Positions 7,385-26,782 of a stretch of DNA of 40,429 nucleotides are shown here, piece after piece. The notes below the pieces were generated by a model that was given only the letters and a program-made list of their open reading frames with translations, was not told the DNA's origin and ran no database searches. The DNA lies in NCBI GenBank assembly GCA_001789205.1, contig MFYT01000063.1, positions 1-40,429 on the forward strand. Reading direction: 5' to 3'. Every line of letters starts with the position of its first letter. The first letter of the stretch is position 1. Position numbers and translations under genes: made by a program. This DNA is from Candidatus Raymondbacteria bacterium RIFOXYA2_FULL_49_16 (lineage in GTDB: Bacteria > Fibrobacterota > OXYB2-FULL-49-7 > XYB2-FULL-49-35).

Positions 7385-8872
7385 TCATTCCACAGGAAGC
7401 AGCACCTTCACTGTTGTACCGCGTCCGCATTCAGAGACAACGTCGATGCTTCCCCCAAGCAGGCCAATGATCCGTTTTACCAGGAAAAGCCCTATGCCAA
7501 CGCCATCGTGACTGCGGGTAAGATTATTCTCGGCCTGGAGGAACGGATTGAACAGCTTGGGTACAAAATCTTCCGGAATGCCAGTGCCTTCGTCAATAAC
7601 CAGGATTGATGCGCAATCTTTATCGCATGATAGGTCAATACGGACCTTGCCGCCGGTATGGCTGAATTTGACTGCGTTGTGAAGCAGGTTCTCCAGAATC
7701 ACCATTACCTTTTCCCGGTCGGTTGATATAACAGTAGGCGCATCGGACTTGTTCAGGGAAAAACTGACTTCCCGGGCATCGGCTTCGGGCTTCAGCTTCT
7801 CGAACACAGTGCATGCAAGGGCCGCAATATCCGTTTTTTCCTTTTCAATGGACACATCGGGTCCCGCATAGAGGGCGACCTTGATCAACCGGCCTGTAAG
7901 GTAATTCATCGCATGGACCGATTCTTTCAGTTCGGGAATTAGGTCTTTGACGCCATCAGCGGCGTGCTCGATCATAAAGAGTCCGTTCTGGATCACCGTA
8001 AGCGGGGTCCGTAATTCGTGGGCCACGATCGAAAGAAAGTTCTGTCTAATGAGGGATGAATGGAGTTCCGCTGTTTTTTCTGAAATAACCACCGCGGTCC
8101 CGGCCCTGTTTCCAGTACCGTAACCCAGGATCGGATGGCTCTTGACCATATACATACGCCCCTGGTTCTCGTACCATCTGAAACCCCGTGTATCGAATCC
8201 AGCCGCACTGACCGTTCCAATAAACAGGGGATCGGGGATTACCCGGGAAATCGGCATGCCTATGCATGCTGATTCGTTTATCCTGAGAATATCGCACGCC
8301 TGTTTGTTGATTATGACAAGCAAGCCAGCCGTGTCGAACGCTATGAGCCCCTCTTCAATGGAGTCAAGGATGATGCGAAAACGGTCCCGTTCATTTTCCG
8401 TGATAAGGGTCAATAGTTTTACCTGACCGGTCTTTTCCCCCAGTTCCCATTTAAGGGAATTAAGCATTGCGGCTTCATTTTTCCTCGCGGTAATGCGGAC
8501 AATGGCCTCAGAGACGCTCTTCATAAGAGCATCAATAGAATACGGTTTCGCAATATAATCAAACGCTCCGGAACGGATTATCTCTTTGGCTTCCTCAAAA
8601 TCCTGCTGGCCCGATACAATAATGACTTCGCACCCTGTATTATGGGGACGCAGTTTTTTCACCAGCCCCACGCCGTCCATAACAGGCATATCAATATCAG
8701 AGAGAAACAGATCATAGGGGCCCTGGTTGTGTTTGGACCATGCTTCGGCCCCGTCGCAGGCGGTATCGATAGTCCAGTTGTCAATACCGGCAACCATCAT
8801 GCTGTTCAGAACCCGAACAACCAGTTCCCGCTGCTGGAGTTCGTCATCAGCGACAAGGATCCTGATTTTCAT
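7385..8872 (-). CDS. Hybrid kinase: receiver-PAS-HisKA-ATPase
   Basis: 495 residues, cytoplasmic. An N-terminal receiver (1-125) has Asp59 in LFLSDIDMPVMDG and Lys109. A helical linker and PAS domain (about 164-268) follow, then HisKA with His285 in SIVAHELRTPLTVI and an ATPase domain with N-box NLLHNAVKF, G1 DEGTGI and G2 GVGIGLFLV. A receiver at the front of a kinase usually means that another kinase controls this one by phosphorylation. It starts 20 bases after the HTH-receiver gene and lies 38 bases before the lone receiver. Confidence 0.9.
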   Translation of the reverse strand: MKIRILVADDELQQRELVVRVLNSMMVAGIDNWTIDTACDGAEAWSKHNQGPYDLFLSDIDMPVMDGVGLVKKLRPHNTGCEVIIVSGQQDFEEAKEIIRSGAFDYIAKPYSIDALMKSVSEAIVRITARKNEAAMLNSLKWELGEKTGQVKLLTLITENERDRFRIILDSIEEGLIAFDTAGLLVIINKQACDILRINESACIGMPISRVIPDPLFIGTVSAAGFDTRGFRWYENQGRMYMVKSHPILGYGTGNRAGTAVVISEKTAELHSSLIRQNFLSIVAHELRTPLTVIQNGLFMIEHAADGVKDLIPELKESVHAMNYLTGRLIKVALYAGPDVSIEKEKTDIAALACTVFEKLKPEADAREVSFSLNKSDAPTVISTDREKVMVILENLLHNAVKFSHTGGKVRIDLSCDKDCASILVIDEGTGIPEDFVPKLFNPFLQAENNLTRSHDGVGIGLFLVKRIIGLLGGSIDVVSECGRGTTVKVLLPVE

Positions 8873-8892: not shown

Positions 8893-9492
8893 TTACTGGA
8901 CCGCCTGCTGCAACGCGTCCATACCAAGCATTGTCTTCACGTTTCGTATGAATTCATCAATATCCACAGGCTTTTGCAGTACCCTAAAAACATTATACGG
9001 TTTGAGTGCCGCAATGTTTTCAGAGGTCGCATAACCGGTACATACCAGGAATTCAGCGTGGCTGGTGGCATTGATTGACTTGATGTTCCGTAACACTTCG
9101 AATCCATCGGCTTTGGGCATGTGAAGGTCCAGGATAATGGCATCAGGAATAAAAATGCCCGCTTTTACGCACGCCTCGTATCCATTGGCGGCTGTTTCAA
9201 TCAACAGCTTTGCATCAATTTCGCGTAAAAGAGTTGTAAACAGCTTGACTATCGATTCCTCGTCATCCACGACCATGACTTTTTTTACTTTTTCCTGGCG
9301 TTCAAGAATGTTCAGGGAAATACCATGGGCATGAAGAAAGGATTCGAGATTTGCATGGGGTATACGGCGATATCCGGTTATGGGCGTATTCTCAGAGATC
9401 AATAATCCCTTATCACAATAATTCTTTACGGTTTTTTGAGAAATACCAATTATTTTGGCCACTTCTCCGGTTGTATAATAATTCTTTCCCAT
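8893..9492 (-). CDS. HTH (MerR/excisionase-like)-receiver response regulator
   Basis: About 199 residues from the ATG at 9492, which has GAGG just upstream; a longer open frame (to 9603) covers the promoter and is unlikely to be coding. Residues 3-58 form a MerR/BldC-type winged helix (YTTGEVAKIIGISQKTVKNY, then GYRRIP). A receiver follows (about 70-188), with Asp122 in AIILDLHMPKADGF and Lys174. This order, DNA-binding first and receiver second, is the reverse of most response regulators. It is the first gene after a strong promoter, so it may autoregulate the whole operon. Confidence 0.88.
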   Translation of the reverse strand: MGKNYYTTGEVAKIIGISQKTVKNYCDKGLLISENTPITGYRRIPHANLESFLHAHGISLNILERQEKVKKVMVVDDEESIVKLFTTLLREIDAKLLIETAANGYEACVKAGIFIPDAIILDLHMPKADGFEVLRNIKSINATSHAEFLVCTGYATSENIAALKPYNVFRVLQKPVDIDEFIRNVKTMLGMDALQQAVQ

Positions 9493-9540
9493 AGCACCTC
9501 GACGGTAAATCGGTAATCTGGTAAAAAGGTATTTCGTTAA

Positions 9541-9569
9541 TAATATAACAAATAAAAAATGATTTGTCA
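9541..9569 (-). promoter_or_regulatory. Sigma-70-type promoter of the signalling operon
   Basis: Read on the minus strand: TTGACA (9569-9564), a 17-base spacer, and TATATT (9546-9541). This is a perfect -35 and a near-perfect -10 at optimal spacing in an AT-rich stretch. Transcription would begin near 9534, giving a leader of about 42 bases before the ATG at 9492. It is the best-formed housekeeping promoter in the window and fits the start of the run of nine closely spaced genes down to base 1. Confidence 0.75.
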
Positions 9570-9656
9570 ATAGATTAATGCAGTGTTTAACAAAATTTCT
9601 CAATTAATGAGTTATTTTAACTAAATAGTTTCCGGTTAAAAACGATAAAATACCTT

Positions 9657-11416: not shown

Positions 11417-11438
11417 TTTGTTGCCTGCAGGAACTACT
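11417..11438 (+). promoter_or_regulatory. Candidate activator-binding site, distal (half-conserved)
   Basis: It contains the 9-mer TTTGTTGCC (11417-11425), then TGCA and a poorly matching right arm beginning GG. The same 9-mer with the same 4-base spacing occurs 66 bases downstream in a better palindrome. It lies about 175 bases upstream of the -24 element and close to the start of the activator gene, so it might also affect the activator's own transcription. A separate perfect inverted repeat ATTGT-ATC-ACAAT lies at 11448-11460; its role is unknown. Confidence 0.4.
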
Positions 11439-11482
11439 TTATAACCCATTGTATCACAATACATTAAGCTAAATAACCAACC

Positions 11483-11504
11483 TTTGTTGCCCACAGGCGA
11501 CAAA
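11483..11504 (+). promoter_or_regulatory. Candidate upstream activator site (22-bp palindrome)
   Basis: Left arm TTTGTTGCC, 4-base centre CACA, right arm GGCGACAAA: eight of nine positions pair. It sits about 87 bases upstream of the -24 GG, the usual distance for a site bound by a Fis-type sigma-54 activator dimer. Its left arm is repeated exactly at 11417. Confidence 0.55.
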
Positions 11505-11590
11505 CACAACTATTACTATTAAACAGGCAATATCTATTCAACTAACTATATATCAATGGATTCGAATTACCTTTTTAAATAAAAAATATC

Positions 11591-11604
11591 GGCATGCCTT
11601 TTGC
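11591..11604 (+). promoter_or_regulatory. Sigma-54 (-24/-12) promoter
   Basis: The sequence CGGCATGCCTTTTGCG carries the invariant GG (11591-11592) and GC (11603-11604) separated by exactly ten bases, with TTGC at -12 as in the consensus. Transcription should begin about 12 bases later, near 11616, just ahead of the AAGGAG ribosome site (11621-11626) for the ATG at 11637. A sigma-54 activator is encoded divergently next to it. Confidence 0.68.
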
Positions 11605-11636
11605 GTTTTCTTTTGTAAAAAAGGAGATAAAAAACT

Positions 11637-12341
11637 ATGTTATCAATTATTAAAATAATGGTAGCCACGGCGCTATTCTCTGTGCCGGTTCTTTTTGCAT
11701 ACACAGAGAACGCTGTGATTGTAAACTACATTAAGCCAGCCGGGAGTTCGGTCGGAGACCTTTGCATGGATCCTCTGTTGCTTACCAATGTTCTCCAGAA
11801 CGAATTGACCCAGACAGGAAACTTTCAGGTCCGTGACAGGTCCATTGTCTTTGGCACAGAAGAGCTTCGACAGTTGTCCGCAACAGCTGAATATTCCGCT
11901 TACGATGCCACCATTCTTGGCCAAAGAACCGGCACTCCGCTTGTAGTCATGGGATGGATACGATGCATGGGTGATAATGTATGGATAAAAATCGGGCTTT
12001 TTGACACTGAAATGGAGGAAGAAATAAAAAGCGTTTCAGGGTCCTATACAAATTCACGTGAAGAAATGACAGACCACGCTATTCCAGATCTTGTAAAAAA
12101 CCTTATCAGCGTTAAAAAACGCTCCAAGGCCAATGACGCACTCGCGATTGAGTCGATCAAGGATACCGAGCCTGATATGGCCGTGGCAAAACCCGCGCAT
12201 ATCAAGTCCTCATATGTGAGATGGGCCCTGATCGGCGGAGCCCTTACCCTCTCAGCCGCATATATAATTGAACTGCTTTCCAGTCCCTCTTCCGGGCCGG
12301 CAAATGGAAATGTAAATACGGAAGTCGTTGCAACATGGTGA
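11637..12341 (+). CDS. CsgG/LpoB-like secreted protein with C-terminal hydrophobic segment
   Basis: 234 residues with an excellent AAGGAG ribosome site. A signal peptide covers about residues 1-21 (FSVPVLFA, cut after Ala21). Residues 25-160 resemble the nucleotide-binding-like fold of CsgG/TolB/LpoB proteins: an early strand AVIVNYI, then LTNVLQNELTQTGNFQVRDR, and VMGWIRCMGDNVWIKIGLFD. A hydrophobic segment lies at about 195-213. No lipobox is seen. Such proteins act in the periplasm at the outer membrane, in secretion or envelope assembly; the exact role here is unknown. It overlaps the lipoprotein gene by 7 bases, so the two are probably made together. Confidence 0.7.
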   Translation: MLSIIKIMVATALFSVPVLFAYTENAVIVNYIKPAGSSVGDLCMDPLLLTNVLQNELTQTGNFQVRDRSIVFGTEELRQLSATAEYSAYDATILGQRTGTPLVVMGWIRCMGDNVWIKIGLFDTEMEEEIKSVSGSYTNSREEMTDHAIPDLVKNLISVKKRSKANDALAIESIKDTEPDMAVAKPAHIKSSYVRWALIGGALTLSAAYIIELLSSPSSGPANGNVNTEVVATW

Positions 12342-14890
12342 GAAGGTTTCTTCGCCAGTCTTTTTGTTTCGTACTGTGCATGCTCTTCTTCGGTGCGTGC
12401 GAACGCACTATGCCCACAAGCGCTGATACTACAACAAAAATATCAATCCAAATCTCCTGGAAAATTGGGGATCAAACCGTTGTTCCGAATATTGACAGCG
12501 TCAGGATCACCATTCAATCAACGGCGTTTCTCTCAAAACGGGTGAACATTTTCCCTTTTTCCAAAGGGACCGGTGAAATTGAAGAAGTACCCAGCGGTAT
12601 CGATATTATTATTACCGTTGAAGGGCTTGACGCTGATGACAAGGTACTGTTTGCCGGAAGCGCTGCCTGCAAAGGGATACTGGAAGGGGAAATAACAGTC
12701 CCTGTTGCGGCCTATTTTATTGTTCCGCAAGATACCCTGGGTCCGGTCATTTCCCTGCTCTCGCACCAAAATCCGGACACGGTAAATTCACGGATAGTGA
12801 GGATTTTTGGTCAAGCGCTGGATTCAAGCGGCATTTCCGCTTTTATGGTGAATGACTCCCTGGTTCCTTGTTCCGATTTTTTTTGGGATTTTCATGGCTT
12901 TATGTTGCAGAATGGCAGGAACACAATACGGGTGAAGGCCATTGATAATAGTTACGAAAAAAACGTATCCACGAAAGACATTGTTTTGTATTACAACCCT
13001 CTCTATGTTGAAAAAACAAACCATGCCCCGCATTTTACAGTGAGTGCAACAAGTTTGACCGCAACGCTTAAAGCAGGCGACATCTATCAAAAGGCCCTGA
13101 GCGTGATTGATCAGGATTCGTTCAACGTGCTTACCTTCAGGATCAGCCAGCCATTTCAGATTTTACTCGACACAAGCGTGTTTTTCAGGACCCAATTGTC
13201 AGACACAGGTACATATGCCGTATGCGCCTATGTGCTTGACCAGGACAGCGCCATGGACTCCATTGCATGGACCGTCACGGTCGTTAATCCTGCCATCAAT
13301 AACACGCCTGTTTTCCTGACACGCTCCCAGGAATTGTTCAGAGAGGTATATGCCGGTTCCGCGTATTGTGATACGGTAATCGCTTCAGACTTGGACCAGG
13401 AAGAAGGCCTGGTTTATTCGATTTCCAATAATGGCGGTTGCGCTGTACTGATCGACAACCTCTCCGGGATCATACGCTGGACGCCTGGTCCGGAAGAAGT
13501 GGGTACGCATGCAATAACCATCCAGGTAAAAGACGATTCAAACGCAATGGCAACGCTTGTCTGGACTGTTACCGTAAAACATCCGAACGTGCTCGTTTTT
13601 TCCGCGGGCAACGATAGCGTCTATTCAATAAACGACACCATCCAGCTCAATCCGGCAATAAGTTTGGCATCAGGGTCTGTATTGCGTTATGAATGGAAAA
13701 TTGGCAATACCGGCATATGGCGCACTGTCTCAAGACCAGATACGGTAATTATCGCGCCTTCCACGCCTATTGACTCCTACACCTGCATATTGCGGATAAC
13801 CATTTCAACAGGCGACATGCTCGAAAGCCGCTCCAATATCCGGATCTCCCTTGACCCACCGCAAGTGTCCGCGGGAAAAGACAGCGTTGTGCTGCGGAAC
13901 CGCGTGGTAAACCTCATTGGCCATGCAATTGACCGCTATGGTTCAATAATAAAGACAGAATGGGACATTGGCAATACCGGTGTTTTTACGGAATCAGCGG
14001 ATATGCGCGCCTCGTTTACCATGCCCGGCAGCAGTTCAGTCTATCGGTGCGTTTTTCGCGCAACCGATGATGACCTGAATGTTTCATCTGACACGGTCAC
14101 ATTCAGGATATTGGAATCAGCCATGTGCTTTATTCAGCCGGATTCGGGGATCGCGTGTTCAATCGGCGTATCTTTTTCCATGGGTTCTACCAGTGAAGAG
14201 TCTGATGAAAGACCAGAGCACATGGTCACAGTGCAGTCGTTCTACATAGACTCTTTTGAAGTGACCCAGGAAAAGTTTTTAAATATAATGGGCGTGCAAC
14301 CATCGAGCGCGGCATACGATCATAGCAAACCGGTTGAAAGCATTACCTGGTTTGACGCGGCATTGTACTGCAATACCATTAGCAAGCACCAAGGGTTTGA
14401 TACGGTATATCAATATTCAGGAATAGAGGGAAATCCTGGCAATAACTGCACCATGCTTCAAAACCTGATCATCAGGCATTCGGCAATTGGTTTTCGCCTG
14501 CCCACAGAAGCTGAATGGGAATGCGCATGCAGGGCCGGAACAAGCAGCCTTTATTACTGGGGCAATGACCAGACACAGGCGACTTTTTTCGCCACGTTCG
14601 GCGGCAATACCATTGTCGAACCCTCGTATACCGGCGCCAAGCAGCCCAATGGCTTTGGTTTGTACGATGTGGCCGGCAATGTCGCAGAATGGTGCAATGA
14701 CTGGTATGGCCCCTACAGTGCTGGGCTGGCAAATAATCCAATTGGGCCAAGCGAGGGCAGCGCAAAGGTAATCCGCGGGGGCAGCTGGCAAGACAATGTG
14801 AATGAACTGCGCTCTTCGAACCGCAGTTTAGGCATGCCAGGATGGAAAAGCAGTTTTGTGGGATTCAGGACCGTGCTGCAGGTGCAATGA
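12335..14890 (+). CDS. Large lipoprotein: Ig/cadherin-like and PKD-like repeats plus FGE-sulfatase-fold domain
   Basis: 851 residues. A lipoprotein signal ends at FFGAC, giving acylated Cys22. The middle has Ig- or cadherin-like modules (about 235-415, with HAPHFTVSAT and GIIRWTPGPEEVGTHAITIQ) and two PKD-like modules (about 418-590, each with an EWxIGNTG motif). The last 250 residues are an FGE-sulfatase (SUMF1-type) domain: FSMGSTSEESDERPEHMVTV, GFRLPTEAEWECACRAG, GLYDVAGNVAEWCNDW, RGGSW. The paired catalytic cysteines of true formylglycine-generating enzyme, which follow RGGS, are absent, so it is probably a binding or surface-display module. The final 26 bases overlap the converging ATPase gene. 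Confidence 0.9.
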   Translation: MVRRFLRQSFCFVLCMLFFGACERTMPTSADTTTKISIQISWKIGDQTVVPNIDSVRITIQSTAFLSKRVNIFPFSKGTGEIEEVPSGIDIIITVEGLDADDKVLFAGSAACKGILEGEITVPVAAYFIVPQDTLGPVISLLSHQNPDTVNSRIVRIFGQALDSSGISAFMVNDSLVPCSDFFWDFHGFMLQNGRNTIRVKAIDNSYEKNVSTKDIVLYYNPLYVEKTNHAPHFTVSATSLTATLKAGDIYQKALSVIDQDSFNVLTFRISQPFQILLDTSVFFRTQLSDTGTYAVCAYVLDQDSAMDSIAWTVTVVNPAINNTPVFLTRSQELFREVYAGSAYCDTVIASDLDQEEGLVYSISNNGGCAVLIDNLSGIIRWTPGPEEVGTHAITIQVKDDSNAMATLVWTVTVKHPNVLVFSAGNDSVYSINDTIQLNPAISLASGSVLRYEWKIGNTGIWRTVSRPDTVIIAPSTPIDSYTCILRITISTGDMLESRSNIRISLDPPQVSAGKDSVVLRNRVVNLIGHAIDRYGSIIKTEWDIGNTGVFTESADMRASFTMPGSSSVYRCVFRATDDDLNVSSDTVTFRILESAMCFIQPDSGIACSIGVSFSMGSTSEESDERPEHMVTVQSFYIDSFEVTQEKFLNIMGVQPSSAAYDHSKPVESITWFDAALYCNTISKHQGFDTVYQYSGIEGNPGNNCTMLQNLIIRHSAIGFRLPTEAEWECACRAGTSSLYYWGNDQTQATFFATFGGNTIVEPSYTGAKQPNGFGLYDVAGNVAEWCNDWYGPYSAGLANNPIGPSEGSAKVIRGGSWQDNVNELRSSNRSLGMPGWKSSFVGFRTVLQVQ
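14843..14879 (+). repeat. 37-bp direct repeat, left copy
   Basis: This stretch encodes WKSSFVGFRTVL near the end of the lipoprotein gene. It is identical over 37 bases to 16149-16185. On the other strand it supplies the last codons and stop of the DUF4143 ATPase gene. Confidence 0.95.
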
Positions 14891-19474: not shown

Positions 19475-20518
19475 CTACTTTTTAACCAGTTCCGCCAGCA
19501 TTGCCGCAATACCTTCGGGTGAAAGCACGTACATTGCCGCATCCAATTTGACGGCCTCTCCCGGCATGCCATACACAATGCAACTTTCTTCGTCCTGCAC
19601 AATGGTGAGCGCGCCCCTTTCTTTCATAATTTTCAATTCCTCTGCGCCATCCCTTCCCATGCCGGTCAGAAGCACGCCGATTGCGGCCTGACCCAATACC
19701 TGCGCAACAGAACGGAAAAGATATGAGACCGATGGACGCAGGCCGTTCTCAGGCGGGAGACTGCTCAGCGATATACGCAGGCCGCGTTCCAGGCCCAGGT
19801 GAAAACCGTCCGGAGCAAGGTAGGCGTGTCCGGGCAAAATAGGCTGGCTGTGCGATGCCACGCTCACCGGGAAACCGGACAGACTGGACAGCCACTCTGC
19901 CAAACCTTGAACAAATCCTTGCGCAATATGCTGTACAATAAGCACGGGTACGGGAAAGCCGGGCGCTAGGCCCGACAGGATTTTCTGCAATACCGGCGGC
20001 CCTCCGGTTGACGCGCCTATTGCAATTGCCCGTATGGTACCGGTTCTTTGCGGCGATAATTGCCCAGACACTGGCGCTGCCATGCGCACTTTGGATGACC
20101 GGGCGAGGCGTCTTACTACCTTTATCTCTGACATTAGTTTTACCGTCTGTATCAGTTCCCGTGAGGCTGCCTCAAAGGCGGAATGGTCAATGCCCGCAGG
20201 ACGGCGGACTAAAGCCAGGGCGCCTGCTTCAATTGCACGGAATGTAGAGGGAAGTTCTGATGCGCCGATGCTCCCGCTTACAATAACAATGGGGGTCGGT
20301 ATGGTCTCCATGATCCGGCGTGTTGCTTCAAAGCCATCCATCATTGGCATATGGATATCCATGGTAATGACATCGGGCTTGTGCATCTTGAGAATTTCCA
20401 GGGCTTCCATGCCGTTGTTTGCCGTGCCCACAACCTGGATTGCCGGATCAGAGGTAAGAATATATGTCAGAAATTCCCGCGCCACTGGAGAATCCTCGAC
20501 AATGAGCACCTTTATCAT
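19475..20518 (-). CDS. cheB: CheB chemoreceptor methylesterase
   Basis: 347 residues, normal length. Receiver (1-120) with Asp54 in VITMDIHMPMMDG, then the methylesterase domain (about 160-345) with the triad Ser170 (AIGASTGG), His197 (IVQHIAQG) and Asp290 (LTGMGRDG). It removes methyl groups (or deamidates glutamines) on the MCP encoded two genes upstream, resetting its signalling. The receiver lacks the usual KP motif: the sequence is LVRRPAG, with Arg where Lys is nearly invariant, which may alter activation. It lies 12 bases after cheA and corresponds to WspF in Wsp systems. Confidence 0.95.
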   Translation of the reverse strand: MIKVLIVEDSPVAREFLTYILTSDPAIQVVGTANNGMEALEILKMHKPDVITMDIHMPMMDGFEATRRIMETIPTPIVIVSGSIGASELPSTFRAIEAGALALVRRPAGIDHSAFEAASRELIQTVKLMSEIKVVRRLARSSKVRMAAPVSGQLSPQRTGTIRAIAIGASTGGPPVLQKILSGLAPGFPVPVLIVQHIAQGFVQGLAEWLSSLSGFPVSVASHSQPILPGHAYLAPDGFHLGLERGLRISLSSLPPENGLRPSVSYLFRSVAQVLGQAAIGVLLTGMGRDGAEELKIMKERGALTIVQDEESCIVYGMPGEAVKLDAAMYVLSPEGIAAMLAELVKK

Positions 20519-20530
20519 TATTTTTTTCCT

Positions 20531-22669
20531 TTAAATGAGTTTTTGGATCACGGCCAGCAGATTACTCTGATCAAAACTGCTTTTTACAATATAGGCGTTC
20601 GCGCCGGCGTCAATGCCGCGCTCCTTGTCTTCACGCGATTCAAGCGCGGTCACCAGCACCACCGGCAAATCACTAAGCTTTTTATCAGCCCGGATTTTTG
20701 TTGTTAACTCAAATCCGTTCATACGCGGCATGTCCACGTCCAAGACCACAAGGTCGAACTCATTGCTGCGCACCTGGGTCAGGGCGTCAACGCCGTCAAC
20801 GGCCGTGGCAACCTGATAGCCCGCGGTTTCCAGGATGTTCTTGAGCAGCGTGCGCGAGGTGATGGAGTCTTCGGCCACGAGTATTCTTCCTGTACTGGAT
20901 TGGGCCTTGGCAACAACGTTTTGTTCCCGGGGTGCTGCAGAGGTTTGTATCGCTGATTTTATCAGGTCAGCCACATTGAGCACAGGCACGACCTTGCCCG
21001 TGCCAAGAATTGTTGCGCCCGCGATGTTGCGCACGCTTTCCAGTTGCGGCCCCAGCCCTTTGACCAGCACCTCCTGCTCCTGCAAAACCTCATCGACCAT
21101 AAATGCCATGCGCTTTCCGGCATAGGCGAGGACAATTACTGGCAAATGCGATGTCTTTGCACTATTGGACGGTTTAGGCGCTACAGGCAGTTCAAGGGTC
21201 TTGCTCAGGCGGGCCATTGACAGCACCTGCCCGTCCAGCCGGATGGTTTCGCGGTTTTCGACTGTTTTGATGTCTTCCTTTTTCACTCTCAGCACGCGTT
21301 CAACATTGACAGCGGGAAGAACAAACAGAGACTCGTCCGCTCTTACCAGAACACCCATGAATGTGGCCAGCGTCATGGGCAGAACAAGCCGCAGTGCGGT
21401 ACCATCCCCTATCCGGCTTTCCACGGACACACTGCCGCCGAGTTTTTCCGCCTTTTCGCGCACAATTGCCAGGCCCAGACCGCGGCCTGAAATATCAGTG
21501 ATCATTGGGCTGGTGGAAATTCCGGAATGAAAGATGAACTCTAATGCCTCCCTGGAATCGATCTGCTGCGCAGCGCCTGCGGCCAAAAGCCCCTGTTTTA
21601 TTGCTGCTGCCCGGACTTTGGTCAGATCAATGCCAGTACCGTCGTCTGAAATGGAAATTTCCATCTGGCGGTTGTCTTTTGCCGCAAAGCACAGCCGGAT
21701 TGTCCCGGATGGACTCTTGCCCAGTTGCGCGCGTTCTTCGGGCTTTTTCATACCATGGTCAACGCAGTTGCGGAAAATATGGATGAGCGGGTCTTTCAGT
21801 TCATCGAGAATGCGCTTGTCTATCTTTATCTCCGCGCCATGGACAATCAGTTCCACCTCTTTTCCCTGCGCATGCGCAAGATCGCGGACCATTTTTGGAA
21901 AAATTTCCACAAGCGTGCTGACTGGCAGCATTATGAGGCTTTTCATTGCCTCCAGGTGTTCATCCACCATGCGCCGGAGCGCGCGCAGGTCCTGTTCAGC
22001 GGCCCGGGTCGCAGCGTCTATCCGGCCCCGGATCGTTTTCAGTCCCTCATCTGTCCTGCACAAGTCAAGCATACCGCTTATCTCCTGTAATTCCCTGACA
22101 CGCTGTTCCGCGGCCATTTTAACATAGATCATTTCCTCGGCCTGGAGCAGCAGGGGATCAAGCTTTTTAACCGGTATCCTTACCGTGTCCGCCTGTACCA
22201 GACGCCTCTCCGTGACAGTCTGTGGCAGTGAATTCTCAGGCTTTATGTGTATCGGAGCCCCTTTGGCTACTGCGTTCAACCGGCTTACCAGCTCTCCGGT
22301 CTGTTTCAGCCCTGTTTTTGCCGGTTCTGTTTCCGAAGGCGGAACAAGCAGTGTAATGCAATTTACGGTTTGATGGAGCAGGTCCAGCAGGGCCGGGTCA
22401 AGGGAAATGTTCCTTTTTTTCAGGGAAAAAAGCGCGGCCTCAAGCGCCTGGCAAAGTGTCTCGATTTCCGCCAGATTCACGGAACGCGCTGCGCCCTTAA
22501 GGCTGTGCGCCTCACGAAAGAGGTTTTCGGTCACTTTTGCCCGGTCCTCGGTTTCCCCGGCTTTTTCAAGCTCCATCAGGAATGTGGACATGGCACGGAC
22601 ATGCTCCCCGGCTTCTATCCGGAATGTTGCCCGCAGCCGTTTGAGGAATTCGCCGTTCTTTGTGTCCAT
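20531..22669 (-). CDS. cheA: CheA-receiver hybrid kinase (WspE-like)
   Basis: 712 residues. The N-terminal Hpt domain has phospho-acceptor His55 in REAHSLKGAAR. A dimerisation region follows, then the ATPase domain with N-box IFRNCVDHGMKKPEER (about 298-313), G1 DDGTGI and G2 GRGLGL. A CheW-like domain (about 435-575) binds the array. A C-terminal receiver (about 595-712) has Asp644 in VVLDVDMPRMNGF and Lys696. No separate P2 docking domain is obvious. The attached receiver is the hallmark of WspE/FrzE-type kinases from non-flagellar chemosensory systems. The receiver may act as phosphate sink or output. Confidence 0.95.
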   Translation of the reverse strand: MDTKNGEFLKRLRATFRIEAGEHVRAMSTFLMELEKAGETEDRAKVTENLFREAHSLKGAARSVNLAEIETLCQALEAALFSLKKRNISLDPALLDLLHQTVNCITLLVPPSETEPAKTGLKQTGELVSRLNAVAKGAPIHIKPENSLPQTVTERRLVQADTVRIPVKKLDPLLLQAEEMIYVKMAAEQRVRELQEISGMLDLCRTDEGLKTIRGRIDAATRAAEQDLRALRRMVDEHLEAMKSLIMLPVSTLVEIFPKMVRDLAHAQGKEVELIVHGAEIKIDKRILDELKDPLIHIFRNCVDHGMKKPEERAQLGKSPSGTIRLCFAAKDNRQMEISISDDGTGIDLTKVRAAAIKQGLLAAGAAQQIDSREALEFIFHSGISTSPMITDISGRGLGLAIVREKAEKLGGSVSVESRIGDGTALRLVLPMTLATFMGVLVRADESLFVLPAVNVERVLRVKKEDIKTVENRETIRLDGQVLSMARLSKTLELPVAPKPSNSAKTSHLPVIVLAYAGKRMAFMVDEVLQEQEVLVKGLGPQLESVRNIAGATILGTGKVVPVLNVADLIKSAIQTSAAPREQNVVAKAQSSTGRILVAEDSITSRTLLKNILETAGYQVATAVDGVDALTQVRSNEFDLVVLDVDMPRMNGFELTTKIRADKKLSDLPVVLVTALESREDKERGIDAGANAYIVKSSFDQSNLLAVIQKLI

Positions 22670-22684
22670 TGTATTTGACCGCCT

Positions 22685-24319
22685 TTAAACCTTGAACTGT
22701 TCCACTGTTCCCTTGAGTTTCTGTCCCAGTTCGTACAGGTTCTTTGCCGTTATCTCCGCCTGTTTCATGCTCGCCGCTGTTTCTGACCCTGCCTGGTTGA
22801 TGTTCTCCATGGCTGTACCTATCTGGTTCATTCCCACCACCTGCTGCTGGCTGGATGCCACTATCTGAATGGCTGCCTGCACAGCCTCTCCGCTGCTCTC
22901 TGCCAGCACCTGGATGGCCTCTCCGGCCTGCACAGACTGCTTTACCCCGGCATCCACTGCCTTGCTCCCCTGTTCCGTGGCCATGACAGCAGCGCTGGTG
23001 GCCTTCTGCACATCGTTCAGTATGGTGCGCACCTGGGCCGTTGCGTGCTTTGACTGTTCCGCAAGGTTCTTGATCTCCTGCGCAACCACGGCAAATCCCT
23101 TGCCCTGTTCCCCTGCCCGGGCCGCCTCGATGGCCGCATTGACTGCCAGAAGATTTGATTGATCGGCAATGTCCGAGACCGAGGCGATGATTCCGCCAAT
23201 GGACTGTCCCTGCTCGCTCAGGCTGACAATGGTCCTGGTAATCGCCTCCATCTGGCCACGGACGGCAAGCATGCCGGCAGCGGCCTCTTCCACGGCTTTT
23301 TTCCCGGATTGAAAGACCTGGGACACACGCTGCGCGCTGTCCGAGACGTTCTTTGCCTTGTCCGATGAAAGCTGCGCCGCCTGCCTGACCTCCTCCACCG
23401 TGGTCGTGGTCTCACCTATGGCAAATGCGTTTTCGGCCGTGCCCGAAGCCACCTGGGTGGTTGCGGCAAGGATTTCAGAGGAAGAACTTATGAGGGTATT
23501 TACGGCTTCTTGAATCCCCTGTATCTGTTCCCGCAATGTCTCCCCCATGCTGCTCAGGGATCGCAGCAAGTCACCCAGCTCATCGCCCCGTTTCTTGTCC
23601 GCGGAAAGCTCAACGGTCAGGTTCTTCGAGGCGATCATGTTCGCCGCGTTCACACTCGCCCTTAACGGCCTGATTATGCCCAGGGTCAAAAAGATGGCTA
23701 TTGCCAGGGCAAGAACGATCGCCACGGCCCCAATCAGATACATGAATGTGCGCGCATTTTCCTGCGCAATGTTCGCCTCATCGTACCGTAACGCGGTGCG
23801 CGTTTCACTATGCCGTACAAGATCGTCCACGTTTTCTATCCATTGACCCACCGCGGGACTCGCTTTCCCGGTCATCAGACCAAAGGCTTCGCTGTGCTTG
23901 CCTGCCACGGCCAGATCGAGTACGTCATTGTTCAGCGCCCGTGAGATCTCCTGGGAAGCTTTGACCTTGGAAATCATACCAACCGCTGCCGTATCGTCGG
24001 ACGGGGTCAGTTCCTTGACTTTCTTCAGGTTATCGTCGTAAACCTTCCTATTTTCAGCGATCGCGCTTCTTATTTCCCTGGCCTTTTCTGTGTCCTTGAA
24101 CAGCAAGGCCGTACGCATGGCGATAGATACCTCCCTTACATCAGCGATCATACCATTGGCCGATTGAACGCAGACACTGTTAATTTTTACGATACGATCA
24201 AGCTTGTCATGACTGGCGGCCATCTGATTAATACTAACTATAATTATTAAAATCATAAAACCAATCACCAGGCAGAAGCCCAGCGCCAAACGCAATCCGA
24301 TTTTCATGTTTTTAAACAT
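22685..24319 (-). CDS. Methyl-accepting chemotaxis protein, four-helix-bundle sensor
   Basis: 544 residues. Membrane helix 1 (about 9-30) and helix 2 (about 192-213) flank a periplasmic four-helix-bundle sensor of about 160 residues. A HAMP domain follows (about 214-267), then the cytoplasmic coiled coil with the conserved tip [20 protein letters not shown] (about 383-402) that docks CheA and CheW. There is no C-terminal CheR-binding pentapeptide. It is the only receptor in the cluster, lying between cheW and cheA, so the array is probably dedicated to it. The ligand is unknown; WspA, its positional analogue, senses surface or envelope stress. Confidence 0.95.
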
Positions 24320-24330
24320 ACCTTGCTCCT

Positions 24331-24882
24331 TTAATTATTTTCAGATTCAACGGCCGATTTGTCCACGATTATTTTATTATCATCTAATATTTTTTGCGCA
24401 TCGAGTATGACCATGCGTTCTCCCGTAACGCCTTTCAAATATTCCGCGCCAATTCCGGCTATCGTGACGGGAGGCGCCTGGATCGCCGCACGCGGGACAG
24501 ACCGTGTACCGAGAATGGCATCGGCAAGAATTCCGAACTCCATCTGGCTGTTTTTGAGGATAATCACCTTATTGAGTTCGCCCAGGCCCTTGTCCGGCAG
24601 ATTGAAGAACTTCTTGAGATCAACCACCGAAAGTATCTGCCCGTGCACATTGGTGATGCCCAGTACAAAGGCCGGCACGCCCGGAAGGGGCGTGAAATCT
24701 TTCAGCGGATGTATTTCGCGCACAAAGGCCGATTCAATGCCGTATGTTTCAGACGCAAGGACAAACTCGACAATTTCGAGGAATTCATGTCCGGATAGCG
24801 CCTGTCCGGGTTCGCGCGCCAGGGCCCGCGCCCGCGTTCTGAGAACAGTGTCCTGGTTCTGCGCCATGTGGTCCTGTTTCAT
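24331..24882 (-). CDS. cheW: CheW coupling protein with N-terminal extension
   Basis: 183 residues. About 35 charged residues precede the CheW fold, which starts at [22 protein letters not shown] and includes [23 protein letters not shown]. It links receptor and CheA. The ATG overlaps the stop of cheR as ATGA, so translation is coupled. The extension and the position after cheR match WspD; the second cheW lies just before cheR. Confidence 0.93.
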
Positions 24883-26309
24883 GCCAATGCTCCAGTTTCA
24901 ATGGTGACAAGAATTATTTCCTTTAACCTGCCGGCCGTCAGCCCTTCGGATTCGGGCAGAATATCTTCGGGCCGGTTCTTTTCAAGAAGCGCAAGCGCGT
25001 TTTCGAAATGTTTTTTTGCCAGCCGCGCATTTCCCTGCCGCAGCGCCATTGTGCCCAGCGTAAAATGGGCCAGCAGGAAATTCTGATCTATATAGAGCGT
25101 CCGTTTCAGGGAAGCGCCTGCTTCCGTAAGCCGGTTCATTTCCTGGAGAATGATCGCGCGCAGATAATGCATTCCGGGATTAAGCTTGTCTGAAGCCAGG
25201 GCTTTTTCGCACACAGCCAATGCCTCGGTGAGTCTGCCCTTGTCCGCCAGCGCCCGGATTGAGAAGGCCTTTGAAGGCAATGCTTCTTTTTCAATTTTCC
25301 CGGGTATTTCCAGCGCAATTGCCTGAACGGGTTGTTCCATAACAGGAACAAATTTGCTCTGTGGCGGTAATTCGATGGCAGTTACAGGAGTTTTATCATC
25401 TCCGGAGAATTGGAATAGCGTCGGCGTTTCATACGGGAGAATCTTTGGCAATGGAGACATTGTGTGGTCTTTCCGGTAGGCAATTACGCCGGGAAAATGG
25501 ACCGGGGCAAACTGGGGAAAGAGGGCCTGCGAAAGTTCGCTGGCGCCCACCATCAGCCATCCGCTATCCACAAGTGAGCGGTAAAGATCCTTGCCCACCT
25601 GTCTGGCGCGCTCAGGCGCAAAATACATGAGCACATTGCGGCAGAAGATGATATCCATGGCGTTTGTGTTGTTTACCGGGGAGGGATAAATGTCTTCGGC
25701 CAGGTTCAGATAAGAGAATGTGACCATCTTTTTGATTTCAGACAGAATCTCAAACACCCCGTCCTTTTTGCTGTGAAAGTAACCATCGGTAAGCCACTGC
25801 GGCGCATTGCGGAACGACCATTTGCTATAAATGCCAGCCATTGCCTTGCGCAGAATACGGGGATTTATGTCCGTGGCCAGAATTGTAATATTCCAATCCG
25901 CCAGGTCAGGTATGGCCCTTTTAAGCGCTATTGCGATAGAATATGGTTCCTCGCCTGTTGCGCAGCCTGCGCTCCAGATTCTCAACCGTTTATCGCCTTT
26001 TTCCCGTTCCCGGACCATGGCTGGTAAAATTTCCCCGCAAAGAGCTTCAAAAGCCAACGGTTCCCGCCAGAAATATGTCTCATGTATTGTAAGATGGCTT
26101 GCCAGCATATCCATCTGGCTGGCGGTTAATGGCGCGGACAATAGCCACTGAACAAATTGTTCATTGCCAATAAAACCGAATTCTTTGGCCGCGTTACCAG
26201 CCTTGTATTCCAGGTCGCCCCACCGCTCTCTGGGAAAATGAAGCGCGGTCCTTGCCGCGATCATTTCGCTCAATTGAGACATCAGACTGTCGGGAAGCGT
26301 ATGGTTCAT
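24879..26309 (-). CDS. cheR: CheR chemoreceptor methyltransferase with TPR tail (WspC-like)
   Basis: 476 residues. The N-terminal helical domain and SAM-dependent methyltransferase fold (1-280) show HETYFWREPLAFEAL, the SAM-binding motif IWSAGCATGEEPYSIAI, LATDINPRILRKA and IIFCRNVLMYF. After a linker, residues about 348-450 form tetratricopeptide repeats (ALAVCEKALASDKLNPGMHY, AHFTLGTMALRQGNARLAKK). CheR-TPR fusions are typical of WspC and other non-flagellar systems, where the TPR part assists receptor binding; this fits an MCP lacking the tethering pentapeptide. It overlaps both flanking cheW genes by 4 bases. Confidence 0.94.
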   Translation of the reverse strand: MNHTLPDSLMSQLSEMIAARTALHFPRERWGDLEYKAGNAAKEFGFIGNEQFVQWLLSAPLTASQMDMLASHLTIHETYFWREPLAFEALCGEILPAMVREREKGDKRLRIWSAGCATGEEPYSIAIALKRAIPDLADWNITILATDINPRILRKAMAGIYSKWSFRNAPQWLTDGYFHSKKDGVFEILSEIKKMVTFSYLNLAEDIYPSPVNNTNAMDIIFCRNVLMYFAPERARQVGKDLYRSLVDSGWLMVGASELSQALFPQFAPVHFPGVIAYRKDHTMSPLPKILPYETPTLFQFSGDDKTPVTAIELPPQSKFVPVMEQPVQAIALEIPGKIEKEALPSKAFSIRALADKGRLTEALAVCEKALASDKLNPGMHYLRAIILQEMNRLTEAGASLKRTLYIDQNFLLAHFTLGTMALRQGNARLAKKHFENALALLEKNRPEDILPESEGLTAGRLKEIILVTIETGALA

Positions 26310-26782
26310 TCAACACCTTGGGCCATGGAAGCCTTCAGGTCGCGCTCCTCGTCCAGTGAAAGAAATTGGTCTATATCGTGTATAAGCACAAGATTGTCAT
26401 CCAATGTGGCGACCCCTTTGATGTATTCAGCAAAAGGAAGCGCCTGTTTCGCGTCCACCATCTGGTTCTCAGTCAGTTCGCGAATTCCCTCAACTGAATC
26501 CACCACAAGCGCAACAGGCCGCCGCGAAGTTCGTGCGATGATGAGCCTGTCGTCTGTGTTTATTTGACGTACCGGCAGACGAAAACGTTTGCGTATGTCG
26601 AGGACGGGCAGCACCTTTCCCTGCATGTTTAATACGCCCAATACGATCTCCGGCGCCTTGGGCAGGGGCGTGATCTCCACTGCACGGACAACCCGTTCCA
26701 CAGCGGACAGATAGAGCGCGTAACGCGGTTGATCCAGCGTAAACAGGACAATTTTTTTTTCTTGTGCCAATGGTGTGTTCAT
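26306..26782 (-). CDS. cheW: CheW coupling protein (first copy, WspB-like)
   Basis: 158 residues, about the standard CheW length. The fold is clear from KIVLFTLDQPRYALYLSAVERVV, PKAPEIVLGVLNMQGKVLPVLDI and RPVALVVDSVEGI. It ends in an ATGA overlap with cheR. Two different CheW proteins serving one receptor and one CheA is the Wsp arrangement. Confidence 0.93.
   Translation of the reverse strand: MNTPLAQEKKIVLFTLDQPRYALYLSAVERVVRAVEITPLPKAPEIVLGVLNMQGKVLPVLDIRKRFRLPVRQINTDDRLIIARTSRRPVALVVDSVEGIRELTENQMVDAKQALPFAEYIKGVATLDDNLVLIHDIDQFLSLDEERDLKASMAQGVE

Follow-up and report, generated by a model that had tools for sequence, protein, structure and literature searches.

How is the pair of overlapping genes that stands divergently to a sigma-54 activator gene in Candidatus Raymondbacteria bacterium RIFOXYA2_FULL_49_16 switched on? 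The window, by which we mean the whole stretch of DNA analysed (contig MFYT01000063.1; 40,429 nucleotides), holds a 240-bp intergenic gap of 31% G+C, with the activator gene on the minus strand at one end and the two-gene operon on the plus strand at the other (Table 1). The sequence-only reading had seen in this gap paired upstream sites and a -24/-12 promoter, serving a lipoprotein operon. Judging from the comparisons below, we put at roughly 0.8 the probability that the gap is an enhancer of the GlrR/QseF type which, with a sigma-54 promoter, switches on the operon pair.

Table 1 Features of the activator gene, the gap and the operon in the window (residue numbers refer to the activator protein).
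Feature	Position	Strand	Basis
Activator gene, 561 aa	9711-11396	-	Pfam, HTH profile, GAFTNA tally, tree
HisKA/DHp-like hairpin with HDLNN	activator residues 20-74		HisKA 24.3 bits, E 3e-5, cut-off 26.9
Receiver domain	activator residues 109-217		Pfam
Sigma-54 AAA+ domain with GAFTNA	activator residues 246-412		PF00158 238 bits; followed by lid, then C-terminal GlrR-type HTH
Half-site, exact left-arm copy TTTGTTGCC	11417-11425, extended 11417-11431	+	repeat comparison
Candidate upstream activating site, palindrome TTTGTTGCC-CACA-GGCGACAAA (22 bp)	11483-11504	.	fits TGT-N12-ACA
Predicted -24/-12 sigma-54 promoter CGGCATGCCTTTTGCG	11590-11605	+	GG 11591-11592, GC 11603-11604
Ribosome-binding site, AAAGGAG region (AAGGAG)	11620-11626	+	before ATG 11637, by eye
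Operon gene 1, 234 aa, exported, weak LpoB-like match, C-terminal hydrophobic helix	11637-12341	+	Pfam, by eye
Operon gene 2, 851 aa, lipoprotein, Ig-like stretches, C-terminal FGE-fold domain	12335-14890	+	Pfam, by eye

The palindrome, the copy of its left arm and the GG-N10-GC promoter are all present as first described. The arms of the palindrome pair at eight of nine positions, and the copy lies 66 bp away (start to start), matching at 13 of 15 letters over its longer stretch. Its right half reads GGAACTACT in place of GGCRACAAA and is thus missing, so that the earlier "paired sites" reduce to one full site and one half-site. The promoter candidate agrees with TGGCAYGNNNNTTGCW, the sigma-54 promoter consensus, at 10 of 12 defined letters—a modest score that would by itself be weak evidence, with 0.02-0.04 such matches expected per strand of 240 bp and eight sites of equal score on the two strands of the 40-kb window. 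Given the usual distance from a -24/-12 element, transcription would be expected to start near 11616, which would place the centre of the palindrome near -122; the distance from palindrome to promoter is about 85-86 bp.

The repeats are far denser in the gap than in the genome at large. The 5.43-Mb genome contains 145 copies of TTTGTYGCC and the gap three, against 0.0064 expected there at the genome's density on both strands (Poisson P ~4e-8); of 500 dinucleotide-shuffled versions of the gap, 18 had at least as many inverted repeats that strong. Since the full palindrome, at zero mismatches, occurs only once in the 5.43 Mb, the predicted regulon is one promoter. Places with up to three mismatches of 18 are fewer than for the reversed pattern (7 versus 34) and therefore look like chance, and the palindrome core with up to two mismatches of 14 is found at 68 places (control, 77). 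A scan of the genome for such palindromes near -24/-12 sites, proposed with the sequence-only reading, came back without a further target: among 50 of the 68 core places, none besides the window's own has, at 40-120 bp, a sigma-54 element with a score of 10 or more; a single other place reaches 9. We therefore rejected a multi-target regulon at the sensitivity used, weak palindrome matches being no commoner than the reversed control. Two individual candidates were also set aside: a two-mismatch place on contig C91 and a close pair of TTTGTYGCC copies on contig C54 both lie inside coding frames, the former MlaD-like by eye.

Beyond this genome, a scan of the genome collection gave 48 further exact copies of the palindrome, of which 46 were covered in part of the follow-up and two share a genome with another. 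On 6 of the 96 flanks, a GG-N10-GC element scoring at least 10 is separated from the palindrome by 61-93 bp, versus 0.63 expected (P 4e-5), in a test that allowed distances of 40-120 bp, drew its expectation from the same loci and had its distance window and score threshold chosen after a first look at the data. These six loci (L119, L128, L131, L136, L144 and L156) include three from related Burkholderiales (L131, L144 and L156), and in all but L128 the palindrome stands directly 3′ of a GlrR-type sigma-54 activator gene; in a further locus, L158, it precedes an operon encoding a kinase, a small protein and a GlrR-type activator. NCBIfam ranked GlrR first for all three activators scanned (L119, L136 and L158), at 582-601 bits and hence below the cut-off of 763. 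The genes that follow the promoters encode MdoG (L131, L144) or a BON protein (L119, L136), in each case an envelope protein. In each of the three Burkholderiales loci, the exact palindrome and the sigma-54 promoter separate the GlrR-type gene from the gene that follows, identified as mdoG in two cases and cut off in L156; for L131 and L144, this layout predicts GlrR control of periplasmic glucan synthesis.

Comparison within the phylum was less informative. A palindrome with at most one mismatch occurs in 6 of 167 genomes, this one included, and the reversed control in about as many, so that the phylum-wide count lends no support. No zero-mismatch copy was present in 30 phylum loci around GlrR-like HTH matches, the window activator's own locus stopping short of the gap in that set; one locus with a GlrR-like HTH carries a one-mismatch palindrome of the GlrR type (L188:2246, genome G056). 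The nearest genomes compared were of the same phylum only, and a protein scan of the genome collection returned no orthologues or relatives.

Which protein would read the palindrome? The C-terminal HTH of the neighbouring activator has no match to the Fis-type family PF02954 at E 0.1, and a GlrR HTH profile built solely from six proteobacterial HTHs that had been found via the DNA pattern gives it 34.5 bits. Run against the reading frames of 30 own-genome PF00158 loci (27 of them strong), a stretch of contig C85 and 29 loci of relatives, this profile ranked the window activator first, a paralogue on C85 second (26.8 bits) and the next protein at 19.6 bits. When 82 AAA-HTH sequences were placed in a quick tree—two short rows dropped, and the GlrR proteins being the sole rows from outside the phylum—the activator, the C85 paralogue and two proteins of genome G158 formed a clade (support 100) sister to GlrR (86). 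The same four proteins, from two genomes, are the only ones in the 167 phylum genomes to exceed 60 bits with an HTH alignment that contains the window's own HTH. Thus, profile match, tree and palindrome link together show DNA code and protein code in agreement: the palindrome is linked to a GlrR-type HTH across phyla. At the level of the whole protein, NCBIfam ranks NtrC first and GlrR second for the activator, and the GlrR model NF011695 covers residues 106-560 at 354.3 bits, short of its cut-off of 763. The combination of sigma-54 activator, upstream site, -24/-12 promoter and operon proposed earlier is accordingly borne out in its elements, and exact palindromes elsewhere lie 61-93 bp from sigma-54 promoters, beside the activators with the closest-matching HTH. 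What the computation establishes is that these elements exist and are unique in the genome, that site and HTH type are linked across phyla, and that the distance to sigma-54 promoters is a shared one.

As a sigma-54 activator the protein is supported by its AAA+ domain and by an RpoN encoded in the genome (PF04552, 198.9 bits, one match); its loop reads GAFTNA instead of GAFTGA. The GAFTGA loop is the part of such activators that touches sigma-54. Among 27 own-genome motifs, we counted 20 GAFTGA, four GSFTGA and one each of GSFTSA, GAFTSA and GAFTNA, and 29 motifs in relatives include one GAFTNA and one GAFTDA. A literature search on GAFTNA retrieved no paper. In the excerpted text of one report on NorR (PMC2941729), the bypass variants G266N and G266D, which carry GAFTNA and GAFTDA, are active in vitro and in vivo; since the G266N variant is active yet freed from its regulatory domain, the window activator may by analogy work under looser control.

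The loop also opens the way to another reading, in which the C85 paralogue mainly works the site, alone or in mixed rings, and its GAFTNA neighbour serves as a modulator or decoy. The paralogue (DHp-REC-REC-AAA-HTH, the hairpin being recognised by alignment only, with no HisKA match at E 0.001) has the canonical GAFTGA, comes second with the GlrR HTH profile and has a recognition helix nearly identical to that of the activator (NRASFHRIL versus NRASFHKIL), and it lacks an obvious site of its own, with no TTTGTYGCC in the surrounding 19 kb. Nevertheless, it is the window activator that adjoins the only full site and outscores the paralogue with the profile, and the equivalent change in NorR, G266N, still permits open-complex formation and activation, again as excerpted (PMC2941729). 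We consider this reading unlikely as a replacement, and the paralogue may share the site with the activator. Upstream of the paralogue gene, at L046:9900-10150, we noticed by eye several near-identical tandem units of about 40 bp that share CATTCTGCTATACTGGCAT.

The position of the half-site, some 20 bp upstream of the activator's start codon (ATG), fits a different arrangement, in which palindrome and half-site serve as an operator for autoregulation of the divergent activator gene and the operon is under another promoter. Two weak sigma-70-like matches on the minus strand would suit such a role, but 2.4 are expected by chance; moreover, the sigma-54 element lies right before the ribosome-binding site, and the palindrome-to-promoter layout recurs at other loci. 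As an explanation of the gap it seems improbable, and autoregulation could coexist with activation. Still more improbable is that a different regulator occupies the palindrome, or that repeat and GG-N10-GC alike arose by chance: many of the 48 exact copies in the genome collection lie in reading frames and are probably chance, but the presence of TTTGTYGCC three times within 240 bp (P ~4e-8) and the link from palindrome to HTH through the GlrR profile argue otherwise.

In the GlrR/QseF-type reading, which we prefer, a dimer of the divergently encoded activator would bind the palindrome, some 122 bp upstream of the predicted start, by way of its GlrR-like HTH, the half-site probably aiding assembly of the hexamer. 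Looping of the intervening DNA would then carry the AAA+ ring to the sigma-54 polymerase at 11591-11604, where ATP hydrolysis would open the promoter complex and turn on the exported protein and the FGE-fold lipoprotein; expression would thereby depend on sigma-54, and presumably on phosphorylation of the receiver. Counting against this reading are the GAFTNA loop, a second site that is half only, the modest promoter score, an activator below the NCBIfam cut-off for GlrR and a second operon copy, on contig C96, that lacks both a good sigma-54 promoter and an adjoining activator.

The N-terminal hairpin of the activator is followed by no HATPase domain in the Pfam scan. AlphaFold2 folded residues 1-90 alone into two helices (14-38 and 45-74) at a mean pLDDT of 63, which does not suffice for a fold search. 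Genome G158 encodes two PAS-HisKA-HATPase-REC-REC-AAA-HTH fusions. The one at L204:3401-6730 (1109 aa; PAS, HisKA, HATPase, two receivers, AAA+) has a GlrR-like HTH of 67 bits and a hairpin, HDFNN, that aligns with the HDLNN of the window activator; no palindrome was found in its 5′ gap. In the other (L205:4668-7970), the AAA domain is without GAFTGA and looks degenerate. UAS-like repeats at 8115, 8187 and 8263 of L205, upstream of this second fusion and accompanied by a sigma-54-like site, were rejected as support because the copies resemble a dispersed repeat and GAFTGA is absent from the AAA domain of that protein. From alignment, the activator's hairpin is probably a remnant of a full histidine-kinase/activator fusion like those of G158, and the series from the G158 fusion through the C85 paralogue to the activator suggests loss of sensor and ATPase parts, if the direction of change is as we suppose. 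A possible, if doubtful, extension would make the activator a self-contained phosphorelay that shed its kinase: having lost sensor and ATPase, it would have kept the HDLNN phosphoacceptor hairpin before the receiver, take phosphate from a kinase in trans, pass it to its own receiver and, through a pre-activated GAFTNA loop, drive a dedicated single-target enhancer. The activator's neighbours are an HTH-REC protein, a REC-PAS-kinase and the divergent operon; the first, beside the activator at 8893-9603 of the window, is a MerR/excisionase-type HTH fused to a receiver domain. Farther along, 19475-26782 holds a chemotaxis-like cluster (CheB, CheA, MCP, CheW and CheR by eye), amid a dense assembly of genes for receivers and kinases. 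For kinase-activator fusions, titles and opening lines of abstracts in the literature searched held nothing on point.

The two genes of the operon overlap by 7 bp, and their products would, from these features, act in the envelope. The description as a lipoprotein operon holds for gene 2, which has a lipobox, FFGAC, near its N-terminus (by eye) and the FGE fold first proposed for it (PF03781, 146.7 bits), and fails for gene 1, whose signal peptide, also seen by eye, is without a lipobox Cys. Nor could the CsgG likeness of gene 1 be upheld: Pfam has no CsgG match and only a sub-threshold one to LpoB (PF13036, E 0.039). In the NCBIfam scan, gene 1 had no match, and a match to the Fibrobacter lipoprotein family TIGR02171 stayed below its cut-off. 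Distant relatives of gene 1 occur in 15 other genomes (167 searched). The second copy of the operon, again an exported protein plus an FGE lipoprotein (L079:3737-7191, on C96), has a divergent neighbour gene at about 39 bp, no activator adjoins it and its best sigma-54 score is 6; as related gene pairs are also present in genome G046, the module itself appears not to be tied to sigma-54.

How does this arrangement compare with known systems? Its kind, a GlrR/QseF-type enhancer with a sigma-54 promoter, is already known, and within the literature searched the new elements are the phylum, the protein architecture and the loop sequence; on GlrR beyond enterobacteria and on Fibrobacteres with sigma-54, the abstract-level text searched held nothing on point. 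A DNA code, TGTYGCC-N4-GGCRACA, is here tied to a recognisable HTH type across phyla, so that sequence alone suffices to predict a target in a group where little genetic work exists, and the GlrR/QseF-type code would reach envelope genes far from enterobacteria. A published genome survey kept, according to its excerpted text, only GAFTGA sequences (PMC12316311) and would therefore have dropped a natural GAFTNA activator; the apparent graded loss of kinase domains among the activator's relatives provides a concrete case in which to ask how phosphorelay parts come to be reused. In E. coli, QseF (GlrR) is described in the excerpted sources as binding three upstream sites at glmY with the consensus TGT-N12-ACA (PMC6075780), given elsewhere as TGTC-N10-GACA (PMC8745638); the window palindrome fits the former exactly and the latter at 7 of 8 letters. 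With GlrR/QseF (YfhA) of Enterobacteriaceae and its glmY and rpoE enhancers, as excerpted, the window shares the REC-AAA-HTH order, TGT-N12-ACA sites, a downstream sigma-54 promoter and envelope targets, whereas it has one full and one half site rather than three, an extra N-terminal DHp hairpin, GAFTNA and, in place of the glmY-qseE-qseG-qseF order with its kinase and QseG lipoprotein, a divergent operon. The NorR variants are laboratory mutants of a GAF-regulated activator, while the change in the window is natural and the regulatory domain a receiver. The G158 fusion at L204 belongs to the same clade and shares the GlrR-like HTH and the aligned hairpin, but differs in its length and in its PAS, HATPase and paired receivers. 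The beta-proteobacterial GlrR-type loci (L119, L131, L136, L144 and L156) share the exact palindrome, 61-93 bp to the sigma-54 promoter and an exported envelope target (BON or MdoG) where named above; their palindrome, however, lies 3′ of the gene for an activator that is plain REC-AAA-HTH where scanned, and the window's lies between divergent genes.
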